A stretch of 64,000 bases of DNA. Origin: an uncultured Bacteroidota bacterium. GTDB lineage: Bacteria > Bacteroidota > Bacteroidia > Flavobacteriales > Flavobacteriaceae. Below the pieces are notes generated by a model. It was not told where the DNA came from. It ran no database searches and saw nothing but the letters and a program-made list of their open reading frames with translations. Location: the NCBI GenBank assembly GCA_902595555.1, contig CACJQM010000002.1:186001-250000 (forward strand), given 5' to 3'. Every line of letters begins with the position of its first letter. The stretch's first letter is position 1. The position numbers were made by a program, and so were the translations under genes. This document shows, in pieces, positions 2,308 to 60,531 of this stretch.

Positions 2308-2365
2308 TATTCTCCCAAATATATGGTATTTGTAACTTTTAAATATTACTTTTAAATAATTAAGA

Positions 2366-3346: not shown

Positions 3347-3464
3347 TTGTTACAAATACAACAATCTGTTTATTAAAAAACTGCCATATTTAAGCTCTGT
3401 TTCATAAAAAAACAAAAGCAATATAAAATTATTTGAGGGCGACTAAAAAGGTCTTAAAACGCTT

Positions 3465-4292: not shown

Positions 4293-4297
4293 AAAAA

Positions 4298-4313
4298 TGT
4301 TTCACGTGGAACA
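4298..4313. promoter_or_regulatory. parS centromere-like site (ParB-binding), TGTTTCACGTGGAACA
   Basis: 16-bp near-palindrome whose reverse complement TGTTCCACGTGAAACA is the known bacterial chromosomal parS sequence; lies between mnmG stop and methyltransferase start. Confidence 0.85.
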
Positions 4314-6191: not shown

Positions 6192-6610
6192 TGTTTCACG
6201 TGGAACATGCTCAACGCATAATCTTCCTTTTTTCTAATTGTAGTGATTTCGTTCTCATTAGAATCATTATAACCCATAAAATGAAGGACTCCATGGATCA
6301 TGACACGCCTAAGCTCTTCTTCGAATGATACAGAATACTTTGACGCATTATCAGCAACTCTTTCTACTGAAATTGCAATATTGCCATTAAGCGCGTTGTT
6401 TTTGGACTCGTCAAAAGAAATAACATCAGTATAATAGTCGTGAGATAAATGCTTGATGTTCAGCGCTTTAAGGTCTTCGTCGGAAAAAAAAGCAAAAACA
6501 AGCGAATCAACCGAAGTGTTCTCAGTTTGACAAAAAGCAGCTATCCATGAAGATGTTTCTGCTTCATTATCTAGCTTAAAATCAGTATTATATACAAAAT
6601 CAATGTTCAT
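6188..6610 (-). CDS. ybeY: Endoribonuclease YbeY (16S rRNA maturation)
   Basis: VMIHGVLHFMGYNDSNENE (HGxLHxxGYDH variant); start at MNIDFVYN. Confidence 0.9.
   Translation of the reverse strand: MNIDFVYNTDFKLDNEAETSSWIAAFCQTENTSVDSLVFAFFSDEDLKALNIKHLSHDYYTDVISFDESKNNALNGNIAISVERVADNASKYSVSFEEELRRVMIHGVLHFMGYNDSNENEITTIRKKEDYALSMFHVKQ
6192..6207. promoter_or_regulatory. parS centromere-like site, second copy, TGTTTCACGTGGAACA
   Basis: Identical to 4298-4313; overlaps 3' codons of ybeY (F-H-V-K-Q). Confidence 0.85.
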
Positions 6611-6665
6611 ATTTTGATGCAAATATAACTTTAGATAATAAAAACAGAAAAAAAGACAATTTTTA

Positions 6666-6673
6666 TATCTTTG
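6666..6673 (+). promoter_or_regulatory. Bacteroidetes -7 promoter box TATCTTTG
   Basis: Matches TAnnTTTG, 4 nt upstream of ATG at 6678. Confidence 0.5.
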
Positions 6674-6677
6674 AACC

Positions 6678-7718
6678 ATGCGAGATTTAAAATATCTTTT
6701 TGCTTATACTGTTCCGATATCAACGCTGATATCCTTTAATTCTTTTGGTGTAGGAACATATACTGCTGTATTTTACGCGTTTGTAATATTACCAATACTG
6801 GATGTGGTTCTTGGTGAAGACAACACAAACCTAAGCGAAGAAAAGGTAGGTGTAAAGAAGATTAACAAAGTTTTTGATTGGATGCTTTACATAAACCTGC
6901 CAATAGTATACTCGCTCATGGCTTATGGTTTTGTAAAGGTTTCTTCTAATGATTATAATTTGTTTGAAATGGTTGGAATGTGTCTTTCTGCAGGAATACT
7001 ACTTGCTACTAACGGAATAAATGTCGCTCACGAGTTGTGTCATAGGAAAAAATATATTGAAAGAGCAATAGGTAAAGCGCTTTTTTTACCGTGTCTTTAC
7101 ATGCATTTCTATATAGAGCATAATTTTGGCCACCACGTAAATGTTGGCACTCCTGAAGACGGAGCAACTGCTAAATACAAACAAAACGTTTATTCTTTTT
7201 GGATCACATCAGTAACTAAGCAATATATTGATGCGTGGAAAAAGCAAATGCAATTATTAAAGAACAAAAAGAGATCGTTTGTTTCAATTAAAAACGACAT
7301 GCTTTGGTACCATCTTTTACAGCCAGCATATTTGTTATTAATTCTTTTTGTTTTTTCTAAAGAGGTTGTTCTCTTTGCTTTAATAAGCGGAGTAATTTCA
7401 TTTTTGTTTTTAGAGTGTATTAACTATATAGAGCATTATGGGTTAAAAAGGTTTAAAACTTCTACTGGTCGGTATGAGAGGGTACAAGCACATCATTCTT
7501 GGAACTCAAACCACAATATTGGTAGAATTGTTTTGTACGAACTGACCAGACATAGTGACCATCACTTTAAAGCATCAAAAAAATACCAGATTCTTGATTG
7601 TCATGACGAGGCCCCTCAACTTCCATATGGTTATCCAGCATCAATTTTACTTAGCCTAGTTCCTCCTTTATGGTTTTACATTGTTAATCCTTTGGTGCCT
7701 GAAAAGATGAAGGTTTAA
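6678..7718 (+). CDS. Alkane 1-monooxygenase-like integral-membrane di-iron hydroxylase
   Basis: Histidine boxes HELCHRK, EHNFGHH and TRHSDHH in a multi-TM protein, characteristic of the AlkB/XylM family. Confidence 0.85.
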   Translation: MRDLKYLFAYTVPISTLISFNSFGVGTYTAVFYAFVILPILDVVLGEDNTNLSEEKVGVKKINKVFDWMLYINLPIVYSLMAYGFVKVSSNDYNLFEMVGMCLSAGILLATNGINVAHELCHRKKYIERAIGKALFLPCLYMHFYIEHNFGHHVNVGTPEDGATAKYKQNVYSFWITSVTKQYIDAWKKQMQLLKNKKRSFVSIKNDMLWYHLLQPAYLLLILFVFSKEVVLFALISGVISFLFLECINYIEHYGLKRFKTSTGRYERVQAHHSWNSNHNIGRIVLYELTRHSDHHFKASKKYQILDCHDEAPQLPYGYPASILLSLVPPLWFYIVNPLVPEKMKV

Positions 7719-7737
7719 AAGAATAGGGTAGAGAAAA

Positions 7738-9219
7738 ATGACAAAAAAAAACAGGTTACGTTTTGCGCCAAGTCCAACAGGTCCATTACACATAGGTGGT
7801 CTAAGGACAGCTCTCTTTAATTATCTCTTTGCAAAAAAGACAGGTGGTGAACTAGTTCTGAGGGTGGAAGACACTGATCAAGCGCGTAAAGTAGAAAAAA
7901 GTCAAGAGCATATTGAAAACTCATTAGCTTGGATAGGAATAGATTTTGACGAGTCTAGTAAAAAGGGCGGGCAATTTGGTCCTTATAACCAAAGCGAAAG
8001 AAAAGATATTTATAAAAAACATATAAACGTTCTAATTGAAAAGGGTTGGGCATACTATGCTTTTGATAAAAAAGAAAGGCTAGACTTTCACAGGCTAGAC
8101 CATGAAAAAAAGGGAAAGAAATTTATTTATAATGCTCACAACAGGCTGAAGCTAGACAACTCCCTGTCTATGGATAAAAAAGATGTTGAAGAAAGAATAC
8201 AAAAAGAGAATTATGTTGTTCGCTTTAAAACACCTTCGGAGACAAACGTTGTTTTCAATGATATAATTAGGGGAGAAATTCAAGTAGGAACTAGAGATAT
8301 TGATGATAAAATTCTTTTTAAATCAGACGGGATGCCCACATACCATTTAGCAAATGTTGTAGATGATCATTTAATGGAAATCACACATGTTATAAGGGGT
8401 GAGGAGTGGCTTCCATCGCTTGCCCTACACGTGCTGTTGTACAGGGCGTTCGATTGGCAAGAGCCAAAATTTGCACACTTGCCTTTAATATTAAAACCCA
8501 CGGGCAAGGGTAAGCTCTCTAAAAGAGATGGAGACAAGTTTGGGTTTCCTGTATATGCTTTGGACTGGGCTGATGAAAAGATTTACTCTGGGTTTAATGA
8601 ATCAGGCTTTTTAGCCGAAGCGTTAATAAACTATATGGTCTTTTTGGGATGGAGTCCTGGGAGTGAAAAAGAAATCTATTCCCTTGATGAACTTATTAAT
8701 GATTTTGCTTTAGAAAAAATAAACAAGTCTGGGGCTAAGTTTGATCCCCAAAAACTACTTTGGATAAATTCTCAACACATTCAGGGCTTAAACATAGACA
8801 AGCTTTGTGAGGTGTGCGAGCCAAAAAACAAAGACATTGACAAGGGTGTATTGAAAAGCTTTTTAAAGCTTGTTCAACCAAGGCTGGAAACGATCAACAA
8901 CCTAAAAGAAAAGTTTTTATACTTGTTTGAAAGGCCAACAACAAATGAGGGATTAATTAAAAAAACGATCAGCGAAGAGGTTAAACAGGCTGTTTCTGCA
9001 TTTGTTTTAAAGCTTGTGGCAGACAAAAGCTTAGGGGCACAAGAAATAAAAAAACTGCTATATGACTGTGCTGAAGAAAACAACGCTAAATTTGGAAAGG
9101 TTATGGGTTTTTGTAGGGCTTGTATTGTTGGGAAAATGGAAGGGCCGGATGTTGTTGAAATGATGATTTTTATTGGCGTTGAAGAAACCGCGCATCGTTT
9201 AAAAAAGTTCCTCGGTTGA
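7738..9219 (+). CDS. gltX: Glutamate--tRNA ligase
   Basis: RFAPSPTGPLHIGGLRTALFNYLFA; KLSKRDGD (KMSKS-like). Confidence 0.96.
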   Translation: MTKKNRLRFAPSPTGPLHIGGLRTALFNYLFAKKTGGELVLRVEDTDQARKVEKSQEHIENSLAWIGIDFDESSKKGGQFGPYNQSERKDIYKKHINVLIEKGWAYYAFDKKERLDFHRLDHEKKGKKFIYNAHNRLKLDNSLSMDKKDVEERIQKENYVVRFKTPSETNVVFNDIIRGEIQVGTRDIDDKILFKSDGMPTYHLANVVDDHLMEITHVIRGEEWLPSLALHVLLYRAFDWQEPKFAHLPLILKPTGKGKLSKRDGDKFGFPVYALDWADEKIYSGFNESGFLAEALINYMVFLGWSPGSEKEIYSLDELINDFALEKINKSGAKFDPQKLLWINSQHIQGLNIDKLCEVCEPKNKDIDKGVLKSFLKLVQPRLETINNLKEKFLYLFERPTTNEGLIKKTISEEVKQAVSAFVLKLVADKSLGAQEIKKLLYDCAEENNAKFGKVMGFCRACIVGKMEGPDVVEMMIFIGVEETAHRLKKFLG

Positions 9220-9281
9220 TATAATTATTAGCCTCAAGGCAACATTCAATAGTTGTAAATTTCGTATTTTAAAAGGAAAAA

Positions 9282-10229
9282 ATGCTATACTATATTTTCA
9301 TTATCCTATTTATCGTGCTGGTTCTTTTTGGCACAATTTTCATTGTTAAACAACAATCTGCTGCCGTGGTCGAACGCTTTGGTAAGTTTGTAAGTGTTCG
9401 TCATTCGGGTTTACAAATTAAAATACCAATAGTTGATCGTGTTGCTGGAAGGCTTAGCTTAAGAATACAACAACTAGATGTTGTGGTTGAGACAAAAACC
9501 AAAGACGACGTGTTTGTTAAAGTCAAGGTCTCTGTTCAATACAAGGTTATCAAAGACAAGGTTTATGACGCTTTTTACAAACTGGATTTTCCGCAAGACC
9601 AAATTACTTCTTATGTCTTTGATGTTGTAAGGGCTGAGGTTCCTAAAATGATACTTGACGATGTATTTGAAAAAAAAGATGATATAGCAATTGCTGTAAA
9701 GGGTGAGTTAAATGACGCGATGAAAAACTATGGTTTTGATATTATTAAAACACTAGTAACCGATATCGACCCAGATGCTCAGGTTAAAGAGTCTATGAAC
9801 AGAATTAATGCCTCTGAAAGAGAAAAAGTAGCTGCTCAGTTTGAAGGTGATGCTCAGAGAATTCTTATTGTAGAGAGAGCAAAAGCAGAAGCCGAAAGTA
9901 AAAGGCTTCAGGGCCAGGGTATTGCTGATCAAAGAAGAGAGATTGCTAGGGGGCTTGAAGATTCTGTAAAAGTTTTAAACAATGTAGACATTAATTCACA
10001 AGAAGCATCTGCGTTAATTGTTGTAACACAACACTACGACACTCTTCAGTCAGTAGGTTCAGCAAGTAATAGCAACTTAATCCTTATGCCTAATTCTCCA
10101 CAAGCTGGATCAGAAATGCTTAACAACATGGTGGCTTCATTTACGGCCAGCAATCAAATTGGTGAGCAAATGAAAAAGGCGGCAAAAGAAAAAGAGGCTG
10201 AAGAAAATGAAAAAAACACTAATCAATAA
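9282..10229 (+). CDS. SPFH/Band 7 (stomatin-like) membrane protein
   Basis: N-terminal TM, VKQQSAAVVERFGKFVSVRHSGLQIKIPIVDRV, coiled-coil with AEAESKRLQGQGIADQRREIA. Confidence 0.88.
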   Translation: MLYYIFIILFIVLVLFGTIFIVKQQSAAVVERFGKFVSVRHSGLQIKIPIVDRVAGRLSLRIQQLDVVVETKTKDDVFVKVKVSVQYKVIKDKVYDAFYKLDFPQDQITSYVFDVVRAEVPKMILDDVFEKKDDIAIAVKGELNDAMKNYGFDIIKTLVTDIDPDAQVKESMNRINASEREKVAAQFEGDAQRILIVERAKAEAESKRLQGQGIADQRREIARGLEDSVKVLNNVDINSQEASALIVVTQHYDTLQSVGSASNSNLILMPNSPQAGSEMLNNMVASFTASNQIGEQMKKAAKEKEAEENEKNTNQ

Positions 10230-46944: not shown

Positions 46945-46970
46945 GCCCTTAAATTAATTTTAAATGAATA

Positions 46971-46999
46971 AAGCGCCTAATAACTTAGGCGCTTTTTTT
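46971..46999 (+). terminator. Rho-independent terminator after OmpA gene
   Basis: AAGCGCCTAA-TAAC-TTAGGCGCTT followed by T-run. Confidence 0.92.
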
Positions 47000-47011
47000 A
47001 TTTTTAATAGG

Positions 47012-49687
47012 ATGAAAATTTTTTTCGAAACTGTTCTTGATGAAGTATATAAAAATTTAGATTTAGAAAAAACCTATTTCGTAATACCTAACCAAAGGTC
47101 AAAAATATTCTTAAAAAAAGAGATTTTAAAAAAAATTTCATCACCTTCAATATCTCCCCAGATTTTTAGTATTGATGATTTTATCGAGAAAATTGCGGAC
47201 ATAAAAGAGTCTCCACGAACCAATCAACTTTTTTATTTGTATGAAAGCTATATGATGGTTTCTAGTAAAAAAGACTTTGAATCATATACATTATTTAGAA
47301 ATTGGGCAAATACCTTATTAAACGACATAAATGATGTTGACATGGGAATGGCAGATGATACAAGTGTTTATAAAGACCTATATGAAATTCACAAACTAGA
47401 AGCTATTACTAATCAAGAAACTGAAAAAAAACTTGCTTTTTGGGGCATGATTCCAAAAATTGTAGAAAATTTCAAATCAAGATTAATTGAAAACAATTTA
47501 GCATCTAAAGGTTTGTGTCATGTTTATGCTAAAGAAAACATTGAAATATTTTCAGATGCAAACAAAGAATATTCATTTATATTTCTGGGTTTAAATTCAT
47601 TATCAAACACCGAACAGTATATTATAAATCATGTTTTAGAAAATAATAAAGCTGAAATATTCTGGGACTGCGATGATTCATTTATAGAAAATCCCGAACA
47701 TGAAGCGGGGTATTTTTTTAGAAAATATATATCCGACTGGGATTATTTTAAAACAAAGAAGTTTAAATGGTCAAAAAAACTTATATCAAGCAGAAAGAAT
47801 ATTTCTATTTATGAAACAACAAAACAAATTGCTCAAATAAAAACTGCAGCAAACTTAATTCATGAAATTTCCAAGAAAAAATCAAAAGACAAAACTGCAA
47901 TAATTTTACCTAATCAGGAGTTGTTAATACCGCTTACTAGTTCACTACCAGAATCAATTGAAAAAGTAAGCATCTCGATTTCAAATTCTGTAATTAACAT
48001 GCAGCTTTCAAAATTTGCAACAAATTTTTTTGAAATGTATTCAAGAAAACAAAGCAATAGCTTTTATTACAAAGACATCTTAAATACTTTGTCAAACACT
48101 TATTTGCTTAGATCAAACCCCGCTAAAACGCATCTATATGAGTCCATTAAATCCAATATTATAAATAAAAATATGGTTTACGTGAGCTCAAAATATTTAC
48201 TAGAAGTGTTGAATAATGATATGTCTAAAAAACTTTTTAATTGTACAGAGCTTACCATCCTAGACACTTTATATGATTATATTGATATTTTTGAGTCTAA
48301 CATTGATGAAAGTGTTTTTATAGAGCAGACAACTAAAATTAAAAACACTCTTCAAATTATTAAGAATTTCAATTCAAAGTATAAGTTTACGATAAGCTTT
48401 AATTCACTTAAAGATTTTTTTAACGACATAATTAAGAATCAAAGCATTAGTTTTTATGGTGATCCAACTCATAGCTTTCATGTTATGGGCCTATTAGAGT
48501 CTAGAGGCATGGACTTTCATAACGTTATTATATGTTCAGCAAACGAAGGAGTTTTACCCTCGAATAATTTTCATGGTTCACTGATCCCTTTTGACCTCAG
48601 AAAGAAATATAATCTTACAACTATAATTGAAGATGATGCAAGGACTAGCTATGATTTTTATCATCTACTACTAAGAGCATCTAATATTCATTTAATTTAT
48701 AATTCAGTTTCAGAAGGCATAGATACTGGCGAAAAAAGTAGATATATTCAACAATTAGAGCTTTTAGAAAACCAAAATCATAATATAAAACAAATCATTT
48801 CTCACTACCCATTTAGCTCAACTCAAAGCATTCCGGAAGTTTTTGAAAAAACAGAGGCTTTAATTTCTAGATTAAAAGAAATTGCTGAAATTGGATTTTC
48901 ACCATCTTCATTAAATAGATATATCGACAATCCAATCAGCTTTTTTGATGAATATGTAATAGGGGTTAAGTCTAATGAAGAGGTTAATGAGTTTCCTGAA
49001 GCAAGAGGAATAGGGATTATTTTTCACAACACCATGGAAGCCATTTATAAACCATTTACAGGTATGGAGGTTGATGTAAAAAAACTAAAAATTAGCTTAA
49101 ATAAAGTCGATAAATTATTGGATTATGAATTTATTCAAGAGTATGGTAAAAATTATGACAGAGGAAAAAATATGATTATTTATAAAGTACTTAAGAATAC
49201 AATTAAAAAATTAATCCAAACAGATATTGATAAAATCAATAATGGGATTAAACTAAAAATAATAGACATAGAGTCTAAGCTTGAAGTAAACCTGGTAACA
49301 GAAAAAACAAAAATTAAGTATAAACTTAAAGGCACAGTTGACAGAATACAGAGTGAAAATGGGGACATAAAAATTATTGATTACAAGACAGGCTCATTCG
49401 AACCATACAAATTATCATTTGGCAGTTATCAAGATTTAATTGATAAAAAAAAGAAAGAGGCATTTCAACTTTTATGTTATTGCTTGATGTATAGTCTTAA
49501 CAATAAAAAATCAAAAAATTTAAACGCCGGTATAATTTCTTTTAAAAACCTTAACTCAGGTTTGATCAGTTTGAAAAAATCAAAAACTGAAAATTATAAC
49601 AAAGATGAGCTAGATGAATTTAAGATGGTTTTGGATAATGTTGTTGAGGAAATTTTTGACACCAATCTGAGTTTTTCTGAAAATTAA
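47012..49687 (+). CDS. AddB-like PD-(D/E)XK nuclease family protein
   Basis: FSPSSLNRYIDNPISFFDEYVIGV, GIIFHNTMEAIY, IKIIDYKTGSFEP; start moved from 46964 (inside terminator) to 47012. Confidence 0.85.
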   Translation: MKIFFETVLDEVYKNLDLEKTYFVIPNQRSKIFLKKEILKKISSPSISPQIFSIDDFIEKIADIKESPRTNQLFYLYESYMMVSSKKDFESYTLFRNWANTLLNDINDVDMGMADDTSVYKDLYEIHKLEAITNQETEKKLAFWGMIPKIVENFKSRLIENNLASKGLCHVYAKENIEIFSDANKEYSFIFLGLNSLSNTEQYIINHVLENNKAEIFWDCDDSFIENPEHEAGYFFRKYISDWDYFKTKKFKWSKKLISSRKNISIYETTKQIAQIKTAANLIHEISKKKSKDKTAIILPNQELLIPLTSSLPESIEKVSISISNSVINMQLSKFATNFFEMYSRKQSNSFYYKDILNTLSNTYLLRSNPAKTHLYESIKSNIINKNMVYVSSKYLLEVLNNDMSKKLFNCTELTILDTLYDYIDIFESNIDESVFIEQTTKIKNTLQIIKNFNSKYKFTISFNSLKDFFNDIIKNQSISFYGDPTHSFHVMGLLESRGMDFHNVIICSANEGVLPSNNFHGSLIPFDLRKKYNLTTIIEDDARTSYDFYHLLLRASNIHLIYNSVSEGIDTGEKSRYIQQLELLENQNHNIKQIISHYPFSSTQSIPEVFEKTEALISRLKEIAEIGFSPSSLNRYIDNPISFFDEYVIGVKSNEEVNEFPEARGIGIIFHNTMEAIYKPFTGMEVDVKKLKISLNKVDKLLDYEFIQEYGKNYDRGKNMIIYKVLKNTIKKLIQTDIDKINNGIKLKIIDIESKLEVNLVTEKTKIKYKLKGTVDRIQSENGDIKIIDYKTGSFEPYKLSFGSYQDLIDKKKKEAFQLLCYCLMYSLNNKKSKNLNAGIISFKNLNSGLISLKKSKTENYNKDELDEFKMVLDNVVEEIFDTNLSFSEN

Positions 49688-49727
49688 GCTAAAACATTAA
49701 TTTACTTCATAATTTCCTTAATAATGT

Positions 49728-49735
49728 TAAATTTG
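49728..49735 (+). promoter_or_regulatory. Bacteroidetes -7 promoter box TAAATTTG upstream of CAU tRNA
   Basis: TAnnTTTG, 24 nt before the mature tRNA 5' end. Confidence 0.4.
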
Positions 49736-49759
49736 CGATGATTTCTTTTTAAGAATCAC

Positions 49760-49833
49760 GGTCCTATAGCTCAGTTGGTTAGAGTAGATGACTCATAATC
49801 ATTTGGTCCCTGGTTCGAGCCCAGGTGGGACCA
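49760..49833 (+). tRNA. tRNA with CAT anticodon (tRNA-Met elongator, or tRNA-Ile2)
   Basis: GGTCCTA/TGGGACC acceptor, GATGA-CTCATAA-TCATT anticodon arm, CTGG-TTCGAGC-CCAG T-arm. Confidence 0.92.
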
Positions 49834-49838
49834 CCCTT

Positions 49839-49875
49839 AAACCCTTTAAGTCTTTGATTTAGAGGGTTTTTGTTT
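49839..49875 (+). terminator. Probable terminator after tRNA
   Basis: AAACCCT...AGGGTTTTTG inverted repeat with T-run. Confidence 0.6.
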
Positions 49876-49888
49876 TTTAGACCAGTTA

Positions 49889-49910
49889 TTCCGAACCTAT
49901 TTCCGAACCT
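49889..49910. repeat. Two direct TTCCGAACCT motifs
   Basis: TTCCGAACCT at 49889-49898 and 49901-49910; inverted copies at 51336 and 51358. Confidence 0.85.
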
Positions 49911-49934
49911 AAAACAGGGTTGTGGTTAAAAAAC

Positions 49935-51245
49935 TTAATTCCTTAAAGATTTAGTGTTCAGATTAACCTTATACATTTGATATGTTTGAATAACTGAAAC
50001 AAGATTGTTAAACCTAATTAAAGATTGAACACTATTTAATTCTCTAGTTATTGATGAGTTTAATTTTTTAAAAGATTTTTGAGTAACATAAGTTAAATTA
50101 GAAATTTGACTTACAATATTTTTTTCCATCTTTTCTATTGAATATATTAAATTATGTATTCCATCTCCAATATCTTGGAGTTTATCAGACACTTCATTTT
50201 CCCAATTTGAATTGAATATGTTTAATTTATCAAAACATTCATATATTTCATAGAATGTGATATAGTCATCCTCAACCAAAGAGGTTACCATACTTAGTGA
50301 GTGTAGTAAAAACAATTCATATACATGAATTTGGTCTTTTAATAACTCTGAATATTCCTCTAATTGAGATATTTCTGAAACATCATTAAAAGAATTGAAA
50401 ATTTTTTGAATGTTTTCTCTCTTAGTATTTAAATAATTAGAAAGTTTTACAAACTCTTGAATATGTTTTTTGTCCTCCTTGATGATTTTTTTCTGGTGTT
50501 TTTTAACAATTTTCATAAAGTCATCACCACCATCTAAAACATCAACTATTCCATTACTATCTTTATCAAAATATTTCAGTAATGGAACTCTTTTATTATC
50601 AATAGTTTTTTCCTTAAAATTTTTCAAATCATTAAAGAGTTCAGTTAATAATTTTAACTCATAATCTTTTAAAACTATATCTAATCTAGAATCAGAATTT
50701 TTTTGTTGAATTACTAATCTATTTTTTTCAGTTCCCTTAACTAAATAAATTTTGTCATTAGTAAAATAAAAATGTCTTCCACCTACATTACTGAATGTAT
50801 AGTTTTCGTTATATTTTTTTTCATATTCTTCTTGAGTATTAATTATTTCAGTATTATCAATAAAGTATTGTATATCTCTTAATTTCCATCCATATTTGTT
50901 AGTAACACCGTCTTCTTCAAATGTTACTTCTCTCAACGTCCTACTCCCCCCTCTTATATCTTTAAACAATTCTTTATAATAAGAATCATCAATAAAAATA
51001 ATTTCTATTTTGTCTGGAAACACACAGAATACAATACCACATTCTAATCCAAACCGATAAGTACATTTCTCCCAATAATTTCCACCTAAATATCCATCAT
51101 TATAAAATATTGATATTCTAAACTTCTTATTTGTCTGAAACCAACCACTAACTTTCTTTAGAATATCTTTTTCATTTAGAATCCAACTTTCATTTTTATA
51201 TTTATTGTAAATGTTTTCTAAGATTTTTAAATGGTTTTTTAACAT
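49935..51245 (-). CDS. Uncharacterised 436-aa protein with EF-hand-like loop and helical/coiled-coil C-terminal half
   Basis: Long intact ORF; FDKDSNGIVDVLD Ca-binding-like loop; no recognised enzymatic motif. Confidence 0.75.
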   Translation of the reverse strand: MLKNHLKILENIYNKYKNESWILNEKDILKKVSGWFQTNKKFRISIFYNDGYLGGNYWEKCTYRFGLECGIVFCVFPDKIEIIFIDDSYYKELFKDIRGGSRTLREVTFEEDGVTNKYGWKLRDIQYFIDNTEIINTQEEYEKKYNENYTFSNVGGRHFYFTNDKIYLVKGTEKNRLVIQQKNSDSRLDIVLKDYELKLLTELFNDLKNFKEKTIDNKRVPLLKYFDKDSNGIVDVLDGGDDFMKIVKKHQKKIIKEDKKHIQEFVKLSNYLNTKRENIQKIFNSFNDVSEISQLEEYSELLKDQIHVYELFLLHSLSMVTSLVEDDYITFYEIYECFDKLNIFNSNWENEVSDKLQDIGDGIHNLIYSIEKMEKNIVSQISNLTYVTQKSFKKLNSSITRELNSVQSLIRFNNLVSVIQTYQMYKVNLNTKSLRN

Positions 51246-51376
51246 ATTACTAAAGTAATATTTTTTAATAGAATTTATTTTGGTCCCTAAGGTACTTGAA
51301 CCATGGTTTAGGTTTAAAAACCTAATATTTTAACTAGGTTCGGAACACTAACCAAAAAGGTTCGGAATGCGAACCT
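51244..51376. repeat. Cluster of three palindromes plus inverted AGGTTCGGAA copies
   Basis: ATATTACT-aa-AGTAATAT (51244-51261), TTAGGTTT-aa-AAACCTAA (51308-51325), AGGTTCG-gaatg-CGAACCT (51358-51376); AGGTTCGGAA at 51336-51345 and 51358-51367. Confidence 0.85.
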
Positions 51377-51384
51377 AATACTAT

Positions 51385-51642
51385 TTAATAAACCGTAATA
51401 CCACCTCTATGATAAAGTTCTAGTGACTCACTTTCTTTAGGTTCAGTTCTAATTTCTTCGTATTTAATTTCACCTGTAACCTTGTTAAATATTAAACCCC
51501 TTGTATCATCTAGGTCATAGAATTCGTAAATAGGTGTAGTGTTTGTGTTTTCTCTAGTTGTGGTCCCAGTTAGTACAAATAGTAGTAAAACACCACATAT
51601 TCCAGTAAGAATCCCTGTTGTAAAGTTTTTTTGGATTTTCAT
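51385..51642 (-). CDS. Small single-TM/secreted hypothetical protein
   Basis: 85 aa, N-terminal hydrophobic segment GILTGICGVLLLFVLTG. Confidence 0.55.
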   Translation of the reverse strand: MKIQKNFTTGILTGICGVLLLFVLTGTTTRENTNTTPIYEFYDLDDTRGLIFNKVTGEIKYEEIRTEPKESESLELYHRGGITVY

Positions 51643-51706
51643 TTTTTTAAATTTTAAAGTTGATTAATTGTAATTTACAAAATTAGTATGAATGGTAGTT
51701 TTTTCA

Positions 51707-52024
51707 TCACATACAGGTATTTAAATCTTTGACATTTTTTAAACCGTTAAGTCCAGCATTTCTGATTTTTTTTAAACTCTCAGTGTCGGTCGATATATTC
51801 TTGTCAGATTCTTTGGGGTCTGGGTAAAGTTCTATTGTTTTTTCTAATGCAAAAATACAGTAGCATCTAGCTTGCTGGTTAGTTGCCTTGTTACCTGTTT
51901 TTTCTGAAGCTTCTAGATAATTTATCATACAAGACCTCATAAAATTAACCTTGTTTTCAGGTGTCCATTTTTGTGAACAAGAAACAAGTGGAATAAATAG
52001 TAATAGTAGAATGAGTTTTTTCAT
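51707..52024 (-). CDS. Small lipoprotein, hypothetical
   Basis: 105 aa, lipobox LVSCSQ. Confidence 0.6.
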   Translation of the reverse strand: MKKLILLLLFIPLVSCSQKWTPENKVNFMRSCMINYLEASEKTGNKATNQQARCYCIFALEKTIELYPDPKESDKNISTDTESLKKIRNAGLNGLKNVKDLNTCM

Positions 52025-52062
52025 TTATATAAATATAATTGAAAAAAGATAGAGTATTCAAT

Positions 52063-52596
52063 TTACATTATCGGCTCGAGTTTAATTTCAATTCTGTCGC
52101 CATCATTGGTTTCAATGCGTATTAAAAAAACATCTCCTTCAGAGCGCTGATAACTGAGACTGCGATGAGCGCCATCACTAACTCCTTTGAAGGCTAAATA
52201 TCTATCTCCCACTTCAGTTAGTTCAAATTTATGAATTCGAGAATAAGTTGCGCTTATATTTTCTGGTTCTAGCGAATTGTTAAAGATTTGTAGATTTAAT
52301 TCTAGACTGCCATTAATTTCCCTTATATGAATGATTTCAACAAATCTTGTATCTGATTCTTTTGTAGAGCGAACTAAAGCAGTAATAGTCCCAGAGCGAG
52401 GAGGTAACCATGTTTGTTCTAAGATTCCTCCATCATGCGAACCCTCTCTTTGACCTGTTAACCAATCCAGTTGATATACTGATGTAGTAGAACTTTCCTC
52501 TCCACTAACGGTACTGTTTTCTTCAATTCTTGATGCAGAGTAGTCACATGAAAAAACAAATGCCATAATAAATAAGAGTATTGATAATTTTTTCAT
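52063..52596 (-). CDS. DUF6265-like lipoprotein
   Basis: Lipobox VFSCDY; LDWLTGQREGSHDGGILEQTWLPPRSGTITALVR pattern. Confidence 0.65.
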   Translation of the reverse strand: MKKLSILLFIMAFVFSCDYSASRIEENSTVSGEESSTTSVYQLDWLTGQREGSHDGGILEQTWLPPRSGTITALVRSTKESDTRFVEIIHIREINGSLELNLQIFNNSLEPENISATYSRIHKFELTEVGDRYLAFKGVSDGAHRSLSYQRSEGDVFLIRIETNDGDRIEIKLEPIM

Positions 52597-52640
52597 ATAC
52601 TGTAAATTTATACATATTGATTAACTAAATAAACTTTCAA

Positions 52641-54017
52641 TTAGCAATCACAAATAGATGTCTTTTTGTAAAAGGGATAAATTTTAAAACCTAGCATGAA
52701 CTCAATATGATTTAGTTCATCTTTTTTAAATAACATATTGGATATATTATCAATTGAAAAATATACAGGCCCAACCCTTGATGATATCCCAAGCATGAGT
52801 TTTTTGTATTCATACAGGGTTGAGCTTAAAATCAAAGAATACGCTTTCTTTTCAACCCTCAAGCTGGAGTTCAATAAATTTGGCCTTAACAGCGCATTAT
52901 CTGCAATCTTTACTCTGTTGATTAAAGTTGTATTAAAATAAAATGAGCCCCAAAAGTTATAATCAAATTGAATGCTCATAGCTAGAGGCGTATATAGTGT
53001 GAATGAATTTTTCTTAAAAGATTTATTTCTATCACCATACACCCTTTCAGACATGCCTTTATAATTTGTTACATCACCAATATCTAGCTCTCTAGGACCT
53101 ATTATATCGTAAACATGCACTTCACTTAATTTGTTAAAACTCAAAAAACCTAAGTCTAAAACAGAAACACCTAACTTATACAAATAGGAGTGATTGTCTT
53201 TCACATCGCCTTTTTTCTTGTAAATACTATAACCCAAATCCAATCCAAATCCAACCCCTCTTTTTATAAAAGGATTGTCAGCATTGCCAACAAAATACCT
53301 TGACTCCGATCTAAAGTCATTAAAAAACAACATCGTTTCTACATCCTTATAAATCATTTTTGTTGGGCTTTCTTGTTGAAAGTGAGTAGAATTATAAGAG
53401 ATATTAGTTTTGAAATTTAACCCGAACGACTCTTTAAAAGAGTTGCTGTTTTCAGTTGTAAAAGAATAATTTAATTTGATTTCAGTCCAATTTGCTGCAT
53501 TAAGTATTGAATTAGTTTGATCAAATAAAATTTCATTTCCAAAATTTTCTTTTCTAAAATTATCGTAGTTATATCCAGAATTAAGTGCCAAACTAGAAAT
53601 GTGTAATCTTTGGCTAATACCTAATCCATATGTAAATATTTTTGAGGGTTTATAAACTTTAAAAATATATGAAGGACCATTAAATTGAACAGATGATAAA
53701 ATTGAATATGGCTTATTGCTTTTATTTAGATTAATTGTTAAATCATCTACAGCTTCATCTTTAAACGGGTTAGTAACTTTTATATCTGAAAAAACATCTT
53801 CCAAATCTAAATAAGATGAATTTTTTATAAAACCATAGTCAGTTTCGAATTGAAGGTCAATACCAAAAAGATTTATTTCTTGATCAATTGGGGAGTTTAA
53901 AAAAGATGTAGGGTTAATGCTTATACCATTAAAGCCCGAATACCTTTCAGAAACAATTCCAATATGCGACTGAGAATAACATGAAAAGGCAATAAAAAGG
54001 ATTAAAACTCTTAACAT
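52641..54017 (-). CDS. DUF5723 family outer-membrane-like protein
   Basis: Signal peptide, GFNGISINPTSFLNSPIDQEINLFGID, beta-rich. Confidence 0.7.
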   Translation of the reverse strand: MLRVLILFIAFSCYSQSHIGIVSERYSGFNGISINPTSFLNSPIDQEINLFGIDLQFETDYGFIKNSSYLDLEDVFSDIKVTNPFKDEAVDDLTINLNKSNKPYSILSSVQFNGPSYIFKVYKPSKIFTYGLGISQRLHISSLALNSGYNYDNFRKENFGNEILFDQTNSILNAANWTEIKLNYSFTTENSNSFKESFGLNFKTNISYNSTHFQQESPTKMIYKDVETMLFFNDFRSESRYFVGNADNPFIKRGVGFGLDLGYSIYKKKGDVKDNHSYLYKLGVSVLDLGFLSFNKLSEVHVYDIIGPRELDIGDVTNYKGMSERVYGDRNKSFKKNSFTLYTPLAMSIQFDYNFWGSFYFNTTLINRVKIADNALLRPNLLNSSLRVEKKAYSLILSSTLYEYKKLMLGISSRVGPVYFSIDNISNMLFKKDELNHIEFMLGFKIYPFYKKTSICDC

Positions 54018-54076
54018 GTATTAATTTAAAATATTATTCAATAAATTATAACTTTACGCAAATAAAGGAATAAACT

Positions 54077-56227
54077 ATGAAAAAACTTATATTAATTTCA
54101 GGATTAATTCTAATGATTTCCTGTCAAGAAAAATCTAAATTAGACCCTAATGTCAATCCTTTTTTCCAGGATTGGACTACGCCCTATGAAGTTCCCCCAT
54201 TTATGGATATTAAGAACGAGGATTATATGCCCGCTTTTAAAAAGGGGATGGAAGAAAATCTTGCAGAGATAGAAGTTATCATAAAAAATGCTGAAGCCCC
54301 AACTTTTGCTAATACAATTGAAGAGCTAGAAAGAACTGGTAAATTATTAAGCAAGGTTCAACGTGTATTTTCAAATTTAGCTAGCTCTAATACCAACCCT
54401 AAATTACAAGAGTTGCAAAGGGAGTTAAGCCCAATGCTTTCTGCTCATTATGATAAAATTGTACTTAACGAAGACTTGTTCAACAGAGTTGAAGAAATAT
54501 GGAATAATAGAGAAAATACAGATTTAACCAAAGAACAGCAAAAGCTTTTGAAAGACACTAGAAAACAGTTTGTCAGAAGTGGAGCCTTATTAAATGATTC
54601 ACAGAAAAAGCAAATTACTGAGATAAATTCAAAGCTTTCTGAGCTATCAACTGAGTTTGGACAAAATCTACTTGCTGAAACAAATGGATTTGAATTAATT
54701 TTAAACAAATCAGATTTAGATGGTTTATCAGATGCTGTGGTCTCCGCAGCTTCAGAAGCAGCATCACAAAAAATGGATCAAGCTGAATCTGAAGAGGAAA
54801 AAGAAAAATACAAAGATAAATATGTGTTCACACCTCATCGTACAAGCATGTACCCTTTTTTGACAGAGTCAACAAGAAGAGATTTAAGAGAGGAACTGTA
54901 CAACTCTTATGTAATGAGAGGTGATAATGGCAATGAAACTGACAATAATGATATTGCTGCTCAAATGGCTAAACTAAGAGCTGAAAGAGCAAATATTATG
55001 GGGCATAAAACTCATGCAGACTTTATTTTAGAGGAGAATATGCTTAAGACACCGGATGAAGTTTATGATTTATTAATTCAGCTTTGGAAACCTGCTTTAA
55101 AAAGAGCTAAGGTTGAGGTTGCTGATATGCAGGCTGTTGCTGATTTAGAAGGCAAGGATTTTAAAATAGCTGCTTGGGATTGGTGGCACTATTCTGAAAA
55201 AGTTAGAAAGGAAAAGTATGATTTAGATGAAGCAGCTATAAGGCCATACTTGTCTTTAGACAATGTAATTCAAGGTGTTTTTAACACTACCAATAAATTA
55301 TGGGGCTTAAACTTTAGAGAGATTTTTGATATTGATTCATATCATCCTGACGCTCGTATATGGGAAGTGACAGATAAAGATGGCAGCCACTTAGCCATTT
55401 TTATTGGAGATTATTTTACTAGATCGAACAAACGAGGTGGAGCATGGATGAGCAGCTTTAAAGGTCAATCAAATTTGGATGGAAGACAACGACCAATAGT
55501 TGTAAATGTGTGTAATTTCCCAGCTCCTGTTGGTGATAATCCATCGCTATTAAGTTTTGAAAATGCTATTACTTTATTTCATGAATTTGGCCATGCGATG
55601 CATGGTATTTTAACAGATGTCACTTATGGAAGCATGGCAGGTACATCCGGCCCAAGAGATTTTATTGAACTACCATCACAATTGTTAGAGCATTGGGTGA
55701 GTGAACCTGAAGTTTTAAAATCATTTGCCACACATTATGAAACAGGTGAAACAATCCCTGATGAACTAATTGAGAAGCTATTAAAAGCTGGTAAGTTTAA
55801 CCAAGGATTTATCAATACAGAGTACCTGGCGGCATCGTTACTAGATATGGATTGGCACACTATGTCCGAAGTTGATGCTCAAAAAATTTCAAATAATTTT
55901 GAAAAAAATTCTATGAATAAAATAGGCTTAATTGATGAAATAGCCCCTAGATACAGAAGCACATATTTTGCTCACATTTTTTCTGGTGGATACTCATCTG
56001 GATATTATAGCTATGTTCATGCAGCTGTTCTTGATTCCGATGCTTTTGAAGCATTTAAGGAAGTTGGGAATGTTTTTGACCCTGAACTCTCATCAAAACT
56101 TAGAAAAGAAATTTATGAAAAAGGATCAACGGAGGAAGCTATGGATCTATATGTAAACTTTAGAGGTCGTAAGCCAATTATAGAACCCTTATTGAAAATT
56201 AGAGGTTTGGACGGCTCGTCTGATTAG
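54077..56227 (+). CDS. M3 family metallopeptidase (dipeptidyl carboxypeptidase-like), lipoprotein
   Basis: LFHEFGHAMHGILTD (HExGH), lipobox MISCQE, NPFFQDWTTPYEVPPF. Confidence 0.94.
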   Translation: MKKLILISGLILMISCQEKSKLDPNVNPFFQDWTTPYEVPPFMDIKNEDYMPAFKKGMEENLAEIEVIIKNAEAPTFANTIEELERTGKLLSKVQRVFSNLASSNTNPKLQELQRELSPMLSAHYDKIVLNEDLFNRVEEIWNNRENTDLTKEQQKLLKDTRKQFVRSGALLNDSQKKQITEINSKLSELSTEFGQNLLAETNGFELILNKSDLDGLSDAVVSAASEAASQKMDQAESEEEKEKYKDKYVFTPHRTSMYPFLTESTRRDLREELYNSYVMRGDNGNETDNNDIAAQMAKLRAERANIMGHKTHADFILEENMLKTPDEVYDLLIQLWKPALKRAKVEVADMQAVADLEGKDFKIAAWDWWHYSEKVRKEKYDLDEAAIRPYLSLDNVIQGVFNTTNKLWGLNFREIFDIDSYHPDARIWEVTDKDGSHLAIFIGDYFTRSNKRGGAWMSSFKGQSNLDGRQRPIVVNVCNFPAPVGDNPSLLSFENAITLFHEFGHAMHGILTDVTYGSMAGTSGPRDFIELPSQLLEHWVSEPEVLKSFATHYETGETIPDELIEKLLKAGKFNQGFINTEYLAASLLDMDWHTMSEVDAQKISNNFEKNSMNKIGLIDEIAPRYRSTYFAHIFSGGYSSGYYSYVHAAVLDSDAFEAFKEVGNVFDPELSSKLRKEIYEKGSTEEAMDLYVNFRGRKPIIEPLLKIRGLDGSSD

Positions 56228-56238
56228 CAATAGTATTT

Positions 56239-56985
56239 ATGGGTTTAGCCAAGAAAATCCTCTTTTTTGGGTTGTTTTTTATAAGCTTTTCATCATATTC
56301 TCACAACCCTGAAAAACTTGTTATTTCTGAGATTGAGCGTGGACAACTGAATTTCGAAAATGAGACGATAGCCGCTGAATATGGAGCAGCACTTAAAAGA
56401 CAAAGAATTCGAAGACTTTCTGCGATGTCTTGGTCTAAGAAGATGTATATTTTTATAAAAGCTGGTTTTGAGCATATTATACCTGAAGGCATTGATCACA
56501 TACTTTTTGTATTGGGACTGTTTTTTTCTACTCTAAAACTCCGATCTTTAATATTACAAGTAACCGCATTTACTTTTGCTCATAGTATTACATTAGCTCT
56601 AGCCGCTCTAGGTTTTGTCAAACTACAATTATCCGTTGTAGAACCATTGATATTTTTATCAATTGTTTGGGTTGCAGTCGAAAATACACTCTTTGAGAAA
56701 ACTACTAAATGGAGACCATTTGTTGTTTTTAGTTTTGGACTTCTTCATGGTCTTGGATTTGCGACTTTACTAACTCAGTATGGATTACCAAAAGACAATT
56801 TTATTTCTTTGCTGCTAGCATTTAATGTTGGAGTTGAATTTGGTCAATTATCAGTTTTATTAATGGCCTTTATTTTAGTTCGTATCATTTTTATGAAAAC
56901 TAAATATAAAAACCAATTGAAAATTCCAGCTTCAGTTTTAATTGGTTTAACTGGCCTCTATTGGTTTATTGAAAGTCTTATTTGA
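56239..56985 (+). CDS. HupE/UreJ family membrane protein
   Basis: IIPEGIDHILFVLGLFF, TAFTFAHSITLALAALGF, FGLLHGLGFA. Confidence 0.88.
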   Translation: MGLAKKILFFGLFFISFSSYSHNPEKLVISEIERGQLNFENETIAAEYGAALKRQRIRRLSAMSWSKKMYIFIKAGFEHIIPEGIDHILFVLGLFFSTLKLRSLILQVTAFTFAHSITLALAALGFVKLQLSVVEPLIFLSIVWVAVENTLFEKTTKWRPFVVFSFGLLHGLGFATLLTQYGLPKDNFISLLLAFNVGVEFGQLSVLLMAFILVRIIFMKTKYKNQLKIPASVLIGLTGLYWFIESLI

Positions 56986-57054
56986 TACTGTAAAAATTAT
57001 TCATTAATACATTCTTTTTTCTTTTGGCACCTTATTTGTAAATGTTAGAGAACT

Positions 57055-58014
57055 ATGAAAAATTTAAAAATAATATTTACCCTAAGTCTTTTAGTATTCA
57101 TGTATGCATGTTCACCAAGTGACGAGGAAATTGATAATTCACCTATTACAATATATGATCGTATTGAAGCGAGTCCAAACTATAGTATTTTAAATTATGC
57201 TTTACAAAAAACCGGGCTCTCAGGTGTTCTTGACGGAACAGATGTGTACACATTATTTGCCCCATCTGATATGGTAATGTCTAGTTTTCTAAATGAAAAT
57301 GGATTTTCATCAGTTGATGATGTGCCTGTTGAAGTTTTAAAAAATATTTTATTAAATCATGTTGTAGCTGAACAGCTAAGATACAGCAGGTTTAAAACTG
57401 GATATAAAAATACTGCAGCTGTGAGTGAGGCAAATGGCAAGCCATTATCTATTCATATTGAACAAATAAATATGAGAGTAACTATAAACGGTGAGTCTAG
57501 GATTACTAGAGGGAATATTATGGCATCAAATGGTATAATTCATGTAATAAACAAAGTAATTCCTTTACCATCTCTTGTAACATTTGTAAAAGCGGATCAA
57601 AACTTAGGAGGTTTATTTCAGGCATTAACAAGAAGCGATTTAACAACTGATTTTGTGTCAATTTTAAGCACAGCGCCAAGTAAATCACCAGCTCCATTCA
57701 CTGTTTTTGCACCTACATCGCAAGCTTTTACCGACCTTCTTGCTGAGCTAGGCATCCAAAGGTTAACATCTATTGACGAGCCAACTTTAAGCTCAACTTT
57801 AACATATCACGTAATAGCTGAAACTAATGCTCTCTCAACAGATCTTTCAGATAATTTACAGTTAAACACTTTGGGAGGCCCAGTTACTGCTAATGTTACT
57901 GGAGGAGCAACAATTACAGATGGTAATAATAGAGTAAGTAAAATAGTTCAAGTTGATATTCAAGCAAATAATGGAGTAATTCATCTAATTGATAAAGTTA
58001 TTTTACCCAATTAA
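57055..58014 (+). CDS. Fasciclin domain lipoprotein (two FAS1 domains)
   Basis: YTLFAPSDMVMSSFL, LLNHVV, NGIIHVINKVIPLP and FTVFAPTSQAFTDLL, TYHVI, NGVIHLIDKVILPN. Confidence 0.93.
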   Translation: MKNLKIIFTLSLLVFMYACSPSDEEIDNSPITIYDRIEASPNYSILNYALQKTGLSGVLDGTDVYTLFAPSDMVMSSFLNENGFSSVDDVPVEVLKNILLNHVVAEQLRYSRFKTGYKNTAAVSEANGKPLSIHIEQINMRVTINGESRITRGNIMASNGIIHVINKVIPLPSLVTFVKADQNLGGLFQALTRSDLTTDFVSILSTAPSKSPAPFTVFAPTSQAFTDLLAELGIQRLTSIDEPTLSSTLTYHVIAETNALSTDLSDNLQLNTLGGPVTANVTGGATITDGNNRVSKIVQVDIQANNGVIHLIDKVILPN

Positions 58015-58038
58015 AATTTTAATTATTTAGTTAACAAC

Positions 58039-58074
58039 AAAAAAGGGAATGGTATTTTAACCATTCCCTTTTTT
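58039..58074 (+). terminator. Rho-independent terminator
   Basis: AAAAAAGGGAATGGT-attttA-ACCATTCCCTTTTTT. Confidence 0.92.
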
Positions 58075-58108
58075 CGTTAAATTTAATATTAAATCCAAAA
58101 CTTGAAAA

Positions 58109-59347
58109 ATGAAAAAAATTACCATAATTCTTTCTTTATTTTTAATAATAAGCTGTCAAGACCAACCTGAAAACAAAAATCCAATAGCAAAATTTCAACA
58201 AAATTTAGTTGATCAGGGTATAACGGGTTCAAATGTAACTCAGGTATTTCAAGACGGAAAAGTAATCTATAGCAATATTGTTAATTCTGGAGCTTTAGGA
58301 GATAAAGACATAAATGATAACACAATATTTCCAATATGGTCCATGTCTAAAACAGTGACAACTGTTGCAATGATGATTCTGCTAGACGAGGGAAAGTATG
58401 ATTTAAATGATAATGTAGCAGATTACTTGCCAGAATACGAAAATATTAATTGTAAAGGTCCTGATGGAGTATATCCATGTGAAAAAAAATTAAAAATAAT
58501 TCATTTACTAACACACAGATCAGGTTATACATACTATGCCAATAGTGGAGCAAACTGGGTATCAACTCTTCATACGGATTTGTATCCTGCTTATACCAAT
58601 ACAGTCAGATTTGATAATCTGGATGATTATTCAAAAGCAGTGGCAAAAATACCTTTAGATTTTGAGCCAGGGCTTATGTATACTTATGGACTTAATCAGG
58701 CTATTTTGGGTCGATTAATTGAGGTCATCAGCGATCAAAGTTTTTATTCTTTTTTAAAAGATAAAATCTTTGATAAATTAGGAATGGACGACACAAAATT
58801 TCATTTAACAACAAATGATAGAGAAAGATTTCAACCTCTAAGGGTTAATATAAAAGCTAATACAGCTTTTAATAATTCCGATTTTCATTTGGAAGGATAC
58901 ACAGCCGCTTTGGATGGATACACTTACAATGAGAACAACAAGGCTCATTTTGGTGGTGAAGGCCTAGTCTCAACTATGTCAGATTTTGCAAAATTCTGTG
59001 AAATGCTTGTTAACAACGGAGTTTACAAAGATCAACGTATTATTTCTAAGGATGGTATTGAGATAATGACTGCTAAATACTCAAATGGATATCCTGATCC
59101 TAGTGAACCAAATGTTTTCCCATTGGAAGGCTATGCGTATGGATTTACATTTAATGTCTTAGAAGACAGTGACGCATGGGGGTCAGGAGCACCAAGCGGA
59201 ATATATGGCTGGTCTGGCTATCACAACACTTGGTTTTGGATTGACCCTACTAATAAATTGTATGCATTATTTATGTCAAATTCAATTGAGCCAGATTTTA
59301 GTATTTTGAAAAATTTTCAAACAGCAACTTATAATTTTATAAAATGA
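58109..59347 (+). CDS. Serine hydrolase (class C beta-lactamase-like), lipoprotein
   Basis: WSMSKTVTTVAMMIL (SxxK), YTYGLNQAILGRLIE (YxN-like), FGGEGLVSTMSDFAKF. Confidence 0.9.
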   Translation: MKKITIILSLFLIISCQDQPENKNPIAKFQQNLVDQGITGSNVTQVFQDGKVIYSNIVNSGALGDKDINDNTIFPIWSMSKTVTTVAMMILLDEGKYDLNDNVADYLPEYENINCKGPDGVYPCEKKLKIIHLLTHRSGYTYYANSGANWVSTLHTDLYPAYTNTVRFDNLDDYSKAVAKIPLDFEPGLMYTYGLNQAILGRLIEVISDQSFYSFLKDKIFDKLGMDDTKFHLTTNDRERFQPLRVNIKANTAFNNSDFHLEGYTAALDGYTYNENNKAHFGGEGLVSTMSDFAKFCEMLVNNGVYKDQRIISKDGIEIMTAKYSNGYPDPSEPNVFPLEGYAYGFTFNVLEDSDAWGSGAPSGIYGWSGYHNTWFWIDPTNKLYALFMSNSIEPDFSILKNFQTATYNFIK

Positions 59348-60531
59348 AAAAACCATTACTTATAATAATATTATTTTTTATAATCTCTTGTCAAAATAAT
59401 TTTGAAAAGGATGTTTTAAACATAGTTAAATCCACTGAAATACCAGCTGTTGTTATGGGCAAAATTAATAAGGATGGTAGTATGGATTTCTTTTCAAATG
59501 GCCCATCAAGGTGGGATAGAAATGACACGATTAAAGAGAAAAATATTTTTAGTATTGCATCCATGACTAAAGCATTAGGATCAGTTGCTGCGCTCCAGCT
59601 TGTTGAGCAAGGAAAAATAACCCTTGATGAGCCTCTTGATGAATATTTGCCAAATATGTCATCAATAAAAATATTAACACAAGACAATAAAATTATAGAC
59701 CCCATAAATAGTATTACACTTAGACATCTTTTGACTCATACTGCTGGCTTTGGATATTGGTTTACTAGTAAACAACTTTCAGATTGGGGTAACTTAAAAA
59801 AGGAAATAGGATGGACTGAAAATTACGAACCTAGGTTATTTGAGTCGGGAACATCTTATATGTATGGGACTAATATCGACTGGGTTGGAAGATTAGTAGA
59901 GAAAATTTCTGGAATGAATTTGGAGGATTATTTGAGAAAATATGTCACAGGGCCATTAGAAATGAACAGCACCTGGTTTAATGTTCCGGAAAACCTTGAG
60001 GATCTGATTGTTACCTCATCCTACAGAGATAAAAATACAGGGAAGTTGGTTAAGAATAAATATCAAAAAAGAAATAAACGAACAAGCTTTAATGCTGGAG
60101 GTGGTATTTTAAGTTCACCAGAAGATTACGGGAAATTTTTAGTCTGTATGCTTAATAAAGGTAAATATAAAGGGATAAGAATTTTAAAAGATGAGACGTT
60201 TGAATTAATGAATTCACCTCAGTTGGACGAATTTAAAACAACCCACAGGCATGTCCCTGTAAGTAATGTTGACACTAAAGCTAGGGGTGACAAGGATAAT
60301 TTTTTTGACAGCCATGATAATTGGACTTTAGCTTGGGCATATGAAGAAAATTCTATTTCTAGACCCTATGGAACAGCATATTGGGCGGGATTTTTTAACA
60401 CATACTTTACTATTGATTTTAAAAATGAATTTGCATTAGTTTACATGACACAAATTTTACCATTTAATGATATTGAGTCATACAACCTTTTCACATCATT
60501 CGAAAGATTAGTCTATGAAAATTTAGATTAA
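59344..60531 (+). CDS. Serine hydrolase (class C beta-lactamase-like), lipoprotein, tandem paralogue
   Basis: IASMTKALGSVAALQL (SxxK), YMYGTNIDWVGRLVEK, NAGGGILSSPEDYGKFL. Confidence 0.9.
   Translation: MKKPLLIIILFFIISCQNNFEKDVLNIVKSTEIPAVVMGKINKDGSMDFFSNGPSRWDRNDTIKEKNIFSIASMTKALGSVAALQLVEQGKITLDEPLDEYLPNMSSIKILTQDNKIIDPINSITLRHLLTHTAGFGYWFTSKQLSDWGNLKKEIGWTENYEPRLFESGTSYMYGTNIDWVGRLVEKISGMNLEDYLRKYVTGPLEMNSTWFNVPENLEDLIVTSSYRDKNTGKLVKNKYQKRNKRTSFNAGGGILSSPEDYGKFLVCMLNKGKYKGIRILKDETFELMNSPQLDEFKTTHRHVPVSNVDTKARGDKDNFFDSHDNWTLAWAYEENSISRPYGTAYWAGFFNTYFTIDFKNEFALVYMTQILPFNDIESYNLFTSFERLVYENLD

Follow-up and report, generated by a model that had tools for sequence, protein, structure and literature searches.

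A busy tRNA-Met integration slot in small-genome Flavobacteriaceae and a gene for an undescribed 436-residue protein, probable cargo of a truncated, integrase-less cassette

How bacteria with genomes of ~1.4 Mb go on exchanging defence genes is a question on which a block of genes beside a tRNA gene in an uncultured member of the Flavobacteriaceae may bear. The window analyzed here, a stretch of 64,000 nucleotides, lies on a 327-kb contig of a metagenome-assembled genome (MAG) of 1.4 Mb, which is 83% complete and consists of 15 contigs. ARAGORN placed a tRNA-Met(CAU) gene at positions 49760-49835 on the plus strand, and conservation among relatives ends just past its 3' end. On the conserved side of this slot lies an AddB-like gene (46964-49687, plus strand), which is present in 31 of 40 relatives. 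On the other side are four genes, all on the minus strand, i.e., a gene for a 436-aa protein, here called orf436 (49935-51245), an 85-aa open reading frame (ORF) with a hydrophobic N-terminal segment (51385-51642), a gene for a 105-aa predicted lipoprotein with lipobox LVSC (51707-52024), and one for a 177-aa lipoprotein with lipobox VFSC (52063-52596), which matched Pfam family DUF6265 (6.5e-18). A first-pass annotation had described this arrangement of an unknown gene and three small genes for secreted proteins or lipoproteins 3' of the tRNA, and the ORF and ARAGORN coordinates agree with it. It had also judged the whole block low in GC. This is true for orf436, whose GC content of 23.9% is the lowest among the window's 39 large ORFs (mean 33.8%, SD 3.4), but not for the three small genes, whose 32-36% is ordinary for the window. 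The block is followed by a minus-strand gene (52641-54017) that is 90-91% identical in two relatives, G017 and G020; it is called DUF5723-like after the initial reading of the sequence, and Pfam gave no match.

For comparison, 22 other genomes of the host genus were searched; most of the genomes are incomplete MAGs. In G020, the slot is near-empty, with about 32-35 bp between the tRNA-Met gene and the DUF5723-like ORF. The corresponding interval in G017 is about 5 kb and contains, in this order, a C5-methylase fusion that also weakly matches a restriction enzyme, a repeat of the tRNA 3' end (att copy), a 133-aa gene, and another att copy, after which the sequence equals the empty site of G020. 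G016 carries a type III methylase with a restriction subunit, att, a 133-aa gene, and att, while in G021 the 133-aa gene stands alone between att copies, thus forming a complete one-gene cassette of ~650 bp without an integrase. Two elements, each closed by an att copy, are present in G013: element A contains a helix-turn-helix (HTH) pair, ParB/methylase, and an integrase, and element B, which has no integrase, contains the same HTH pair and a 711-aa ORF reading like a TonB-dependent receptor. A C5-methylase and a UvrD-like helicase fill the slot in G008, where no clear distal att was seen, and no distal att was found in G019, which carries a C5-methylase and a HaeIII-like nuclease, or in G015, which carries a DUF6265 gene. 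The nearest relative by AddB (G002, 90%) has other genes in the slot, and orf436 was absent from the tRNA-Met slot in every sister genome examined. Restriction or methylase genes, of types II and III, recur as slot contents, so that the slot appears to be a place where cargo genes, those for defence among them, are exchanged. Because the slot is near-empty in G020 and differently occupied in other relatives, the block is not vertically inherited, and synteny with vertical inheritance across the family, which had been named as the finding that would refute an accessory locus, is thereby dismissed. The block is a composite insertion, gained horizontally, in a tRNA-Met slot that is much used.

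The tRNA 3' flank had been proposed as the integration target, and this proposal gains support from the ends of the inserts, since the left end of the orf436 cassette is common to a cassette in G019 and relatives' inserts contain att copies. The att core, CAGGTGGGACCACCCTTAAA, consists of the tRNA 3' end plus 6 bp (49822-49841, plus strand). The 14-bp att core is exactly repeated at the distal end of the inserts in G013, G016, G017, and G021, and has a single occurrence within positions 48001-60000 of the window. The left end of the cassette (49836-49913, plus strand), which includes a terminator-like hairpin (49842-49878), is 93.6% identical over 78 bp to the restriction cassette of G019 and 83% identical to the 133-aa cassettes of G017 and G021, and shows an identity of 0.71 over 75 bp to G002. 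It also contains an arm-like pair of direct repeats, TTCCGAACCTATTTCCGAACCTA (49889-49911, plus strand), which we infer to be integrase arm sites. On the other side of orf436, the dense repeats that had been reported to separate it from the small genes were confirmed as two subterminal palindromes (51337-51375), GGTTCGGAACACTAACC at 51337-51353 and GGTTCGGAATGCGAACC at 51359-51375. Compared with the right ends of the 133-aa cassettes of G017 and G021, they are 85% identical over 41 bp. In the latter cassettes, an att copy comes after the palindromes, whereas it is missing in the window.

Most inserts have two copies of an 11-12-bp motif downstream of the tRNA, with the same motif inverted or palindromic near the right end. 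Grouped by eye, these motifs form several classes: TTCCGAACC in the window, G019, G021, and the second cassette of G017; TCGAACCA in G010 and the second cassette of G016; a GGGTA-like motif in G013, with its integrase, and in the restriction elements of G016 and G017; GGATAC in a tRNA-Pro element of G016; and CGGCACTA in G015. The TTCCGAACC pattern alone was checked by a search across 60 genomes. In its 23-nt TTCCGAACCTATTTCCGAACCTA form with at most one mismatch, it was present in 4 of the 60 relatives, always immediately 3' of tRNA-Met or of a tandemly repeated tRNA-Met 3' end. Ends and cargo are not strictly coupled: the 133-aa cargo pairs with two motif classes, and TTCCGAACC ends pair with three cargos. 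The left end of an intact element contains the 3' end of the tRNA, a hairpin resembling a terminator, and two direct repeats of about 11 bp. Its cargo is one gene or a few, usually with no integrase among them, and at the right end an inverted or palindromic array of the same motif precedes a further copy of the tRNA 3' end.

As this distal repeat is absent from the window and present in G013, G016, G017, and G021, the window holds a truncated relative of such elements and not an intact one. A search for a right att copy in the window yielded a best match that was equalled by 63 of 200 shuffles, and TTGGTCCCT at 51280 was rejected as a candidate, being at chance level. None of 25 tRNA genes scanned in the host genome was another convincing att-flanked site. 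The explanation that we favor, and consider probable, is that orf436 is cargo of a small tRNA-Met element without an integrase, which is now truncated on the right and was probably mobilized in trans. In this explanation, the 3' end of tRNA-Met(CAU) is where site-specific elements integrate in this small-genome genus of the Flavobacteriaceae, either singly or in tandem, and a tyrosine integrase supplied in trans would bind the repeats as arm sites and recombine the tRNA core. The orf436 cassette has lost its right att copy and, therefore, is probably fixed now.

The observation that the block lacks an integrase of its own proved correct. No tyrosine recombinase, which is a criterion for the tycheposons discussed below, was found among the ORFs of the insert, and the only PF00589 matches in the 83%-complete host genome are two ORFs of 290 and 310 aa, i.e., of XerC/XerD length. 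The helper of the TTCCGAACC class is unseen, as no integrase with repeats of this type was found in any genome searched. In G013, element A with its integrase and element B without one lie in tandem at tRNA-Met and share the HTH pair (90%) and the right end (87%). On these sequence comparisons, trans-mobilization of the G013 element pair appears well supported, and the window cassette may have been mobilized in the same way. The tandem pair (L051, reverse-strand coordinates 1310-10092) has the appearance of a helper next to its satellite.

A genus-wide protein that matches the N-terminus of the G013 integrase was considered as the missing helper and rejected, as it is SdhA, the succinate dehydrogenase flavoprotein, to which an arm domain is fused. 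This SdhA (about 767 aa) has an extra N-terminal stretch with a match, barely above the cut-off (E 1.2e-4), to PF17293, the arm-binding domain of integrases. The fusion of this domain to a core metabolic enzyme is seen in G020 (L139:2713-5016) and, cut by a contig end, in the host genome (G000:C2:327124-327279). Similar open frames are present in most genus members and in G026, G101, and G113, and the fusion extends to some related small-genome genera. Another family of tyrosine recombinases (346 aa) was observed at the 3' end of tRNA-Asn in two members of the genus, G016 (L147:5637-6818, contig C7) and G003 (L148:6341-7575, contig C13); by eye, a 348-aa protein encoded near the orf436 homolog of G370 is a relative of it.

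Alternatively, orf436 could have come on a larger, autonomous island, whose own integrase was deleted together with the right att; the repeats would then be relics, and no trans-mobilized cassette would have existed. The missing right att copy fits such decay, and so does locus L059, where a relative of orf436 lies inside a tRNA-Pro element that contains a truncated integrase domain; a partial tRNA-Pro is on one side of this relative and a repeat of the tRNA-Pro 3' end on the other. However, both repeat sets in the window close around orf436 and are spaced as in intact integrase-less cassettes. Because they bracket the gene so tightly, there is no room inside for a deleted integrase. Furthermore, intact integrase-less cassettes with the same ends are found in G017 and G021, and we therefore regard decay of a larger island as unlikely and arrival as a small cassette without an integrase as the better explanation.

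The block had also been put forward as the best candidate in the window for an uncharacterized system. Whereas orf436 is indeed unknown and the block accessory, it is not one four-gene system. Over its 493 bp, the DUF6265 region (52061-52553) shows 94% DNA identity to G015, in which this gene is likewise found 3' of tRNA-Met; the AddB tail of G015 is just 39% identical to that of the window. As judged from the sequence, this region is a second, separate acquisition at the same slot, which would have arrived independently of its neighbor, and the block is a composite of at least two acquisitions, i.e., the orf436 cassette, from 49836 to about 51384, and the DUF6265 region. Full-length relatives of the 85- and 105-aa genes were found in none of the loci compared. 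Signal-peptide DNA that is nearly identical (MKKLILLLLF...; 88-96% over 47-87 bp) stands before unrelated mature proteins in the window (51977-52065), L044, L147, and L149, and the DUF6265 gene of G015 bears the leader found on the 105-aa gene of the window.

That the DUF6265 region is common to G015, where att copies are not detectable, could also be explained by a flexible island that is swapped by homologous recombination between conserved flanks, with the tRNA as a mere conserved anchor. The exact att duplications, the tandem arrays, and the restored empty-site sequence need site-specific recombination, however, which makes such exchange very improbable as the explanation of the locus. An artefact of assembly or binning, to which the 83% completeness of the MAG and a second orf436-family copy at a contig end might point, is hardly credible, as the contig measures 327 kb, both flanks match relatives, and the same kind of arrays is found in independent MAGs.

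Searches with orf436 against Pfam, PADLOC, PHROGs, NCBIfam, and PDB gave nothing above the cut-off, and the matches below it look like coiled-coil noise. PADLOC had no match for its neighbors or for 12 family members either, and no relatives were found in phages, plasmids, or viral contigs. The best PDB profile matches, which are weak (E 0.11-0.15), are EF-hand proteins. Residues 227-238 (50532-50567, minus strand) form an EF-hand-like loop, DKDSNGIVDVLD, which by eye fits a 12-residue loop with acidic residues or N at positions 1, 3, 5, and 12 and G at position 6, but gave no Pfam EF-hand match. The loop is kept in most family members and is missing from L086, L087, and L092. A helical C-terminus is common to the members, and the N-terminus is variable, by eye with a hydrophobic segment in some of them. 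AlphaFold2 models of the whole protein and of its C-terminal part, each from four sequences, had mean pLDDT values of 39.6 and 43.3, respectively, too poor for a fold search. Profile matches were obtained in 6 of 400 genomes of the taxonomic family, 8 of 395 of the class, and 2 of 396 of the phylum, counts that each include the host genome and contain two probably false matches. The latter (G074, E 8e-4; G692, E 3e-4) resemble unrelated proteins with coiled coils and were excluded from the relatives. orf436 belongs to an undescribed protein family with patchy distribution across Bacteroidota. Conceivably, orf436 is an accessory protein, either calcium-binding or a structural coiled coil, and might act in phage defence; the latter role is a guess prompted by the restriction or methyltransferase genes in several occupied slots.

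Relatives of orf436 are located directly 3' of tRNA-Pro in G016, tRNA-Ser in G019, tRNA-Ala in G370, and tRNA-Val in G822; with the L059 locus described above, these positions speak for the cassette explanation. Among 14 hand-counted loci, from which the window and the duplicate contig-end copy were left out, 5 adjoin a tRNA, with a binomial chance of about 6e-6 to 4e-5 if 2-3% of genes lie next to a tRNA, a rough figure from 28 tRNA genes in 1.4 Mb. At the tRNA-Pro locus of G016, the distal tRNA-end-like copy was equalled by 1 of 200 shuffles; no convincing distal att copy was found to the right of the tRNAs in G019 (tRNA-Ser), G370, and G822. The orf436 relatives of G008, G117, G345, G593, and G709, in contrast, have no tRNA close by, which speaks against it. 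The second family copy in the host genome (L055:11248-12199, G000:C5), which is cut by the contig end, shares a stretch of 953 bp at 95% DNA identity with the tRNA-Pro element of G016, the tRNA-end-like sequence included. A glmS gene is found near the relative in G088, G492, and G722. In L088, a small uncharacterized gene (5548-5922) overlaps the end of the orf436 relative; in L087, the gene directly after the relative (7697-8014) has 35% identity to this partner gene, and the relative in G492 is overlapped by a gene whose match to GIY-YIG (E 0.014) lies below the threshold.

In the widest reading, which we offer tentatively, small-genome Flavobacteriaceae might keep a system of cassette exchange at tRNA genes, in which integrase-less cassettes down to one gene belong to separate end-motif classes. 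Cargo would be interchangeable between the classes, and each of them would depend on a tyrosine integrase of its own, acting in trans. Such a system would be a tRNA-based counterpart of integron cassettes, and orf436 would found a new, probably defensive, EF-hand/coiled-coil cargo family that is spread in this way. One-gene cassettes that borrow both integrase and tRNA site would be a cheap route of exchange. The end motifs offer a direct handle for finding cassettes and helpers, and the orf436 family, a candidate for function tests, could mark such mobile slots across Bacteroidota. We found no description of such cassettes in Flavobacteria in the open-licence literature.

Several known systems are similar in part. 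Defence islands and hotspots, e.g., in E. coli, also combine a single slot with variable content and frequent restriction-modification (PMC10121019), but the units described here are individual att-bounded cassettes, and orf436 matches no known defence family. Tycheposons, known from Prochlorococcus and reported for small-genome Methylophilaceae, are elements of 4-200 kb with a xerD-like recombinase and metabolic cargo (PMC10872708). They share with the present elements the integration at tRNA genes of small-genome aquatic bacteria, with tRNA-Met among the sites, variable cargo, and a tyrosine recombinase, whereas the slot units here measure about 0.65-6 kb, often lack a recombinase, and often carry restriction genes. 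Cis-mobilizable elements (CIME) are att-bounded DNA segments without an integrase that need a helper. Likewise, att-flanked non-autonomous islands and "hitcher" elements are integrase-less and helper-dependent (PMC11389934, PMC5704250). The elements described here resemble both types in being att-bounded without an integrase, but they go down to one gene, form tandem arrays, and have separate repeat-motif classes with cargo common to several of them. Finally, integron cassettes and CALIN arrays are tandem integrase-less cargo cassettes that depend on an integrase from elsewhere (PMC11389934). The tandem cargo cassettes of the tRNA-Met slot are alike in this respect, but their site is the 3' end of a tRNA gene, with subterminal repeats.
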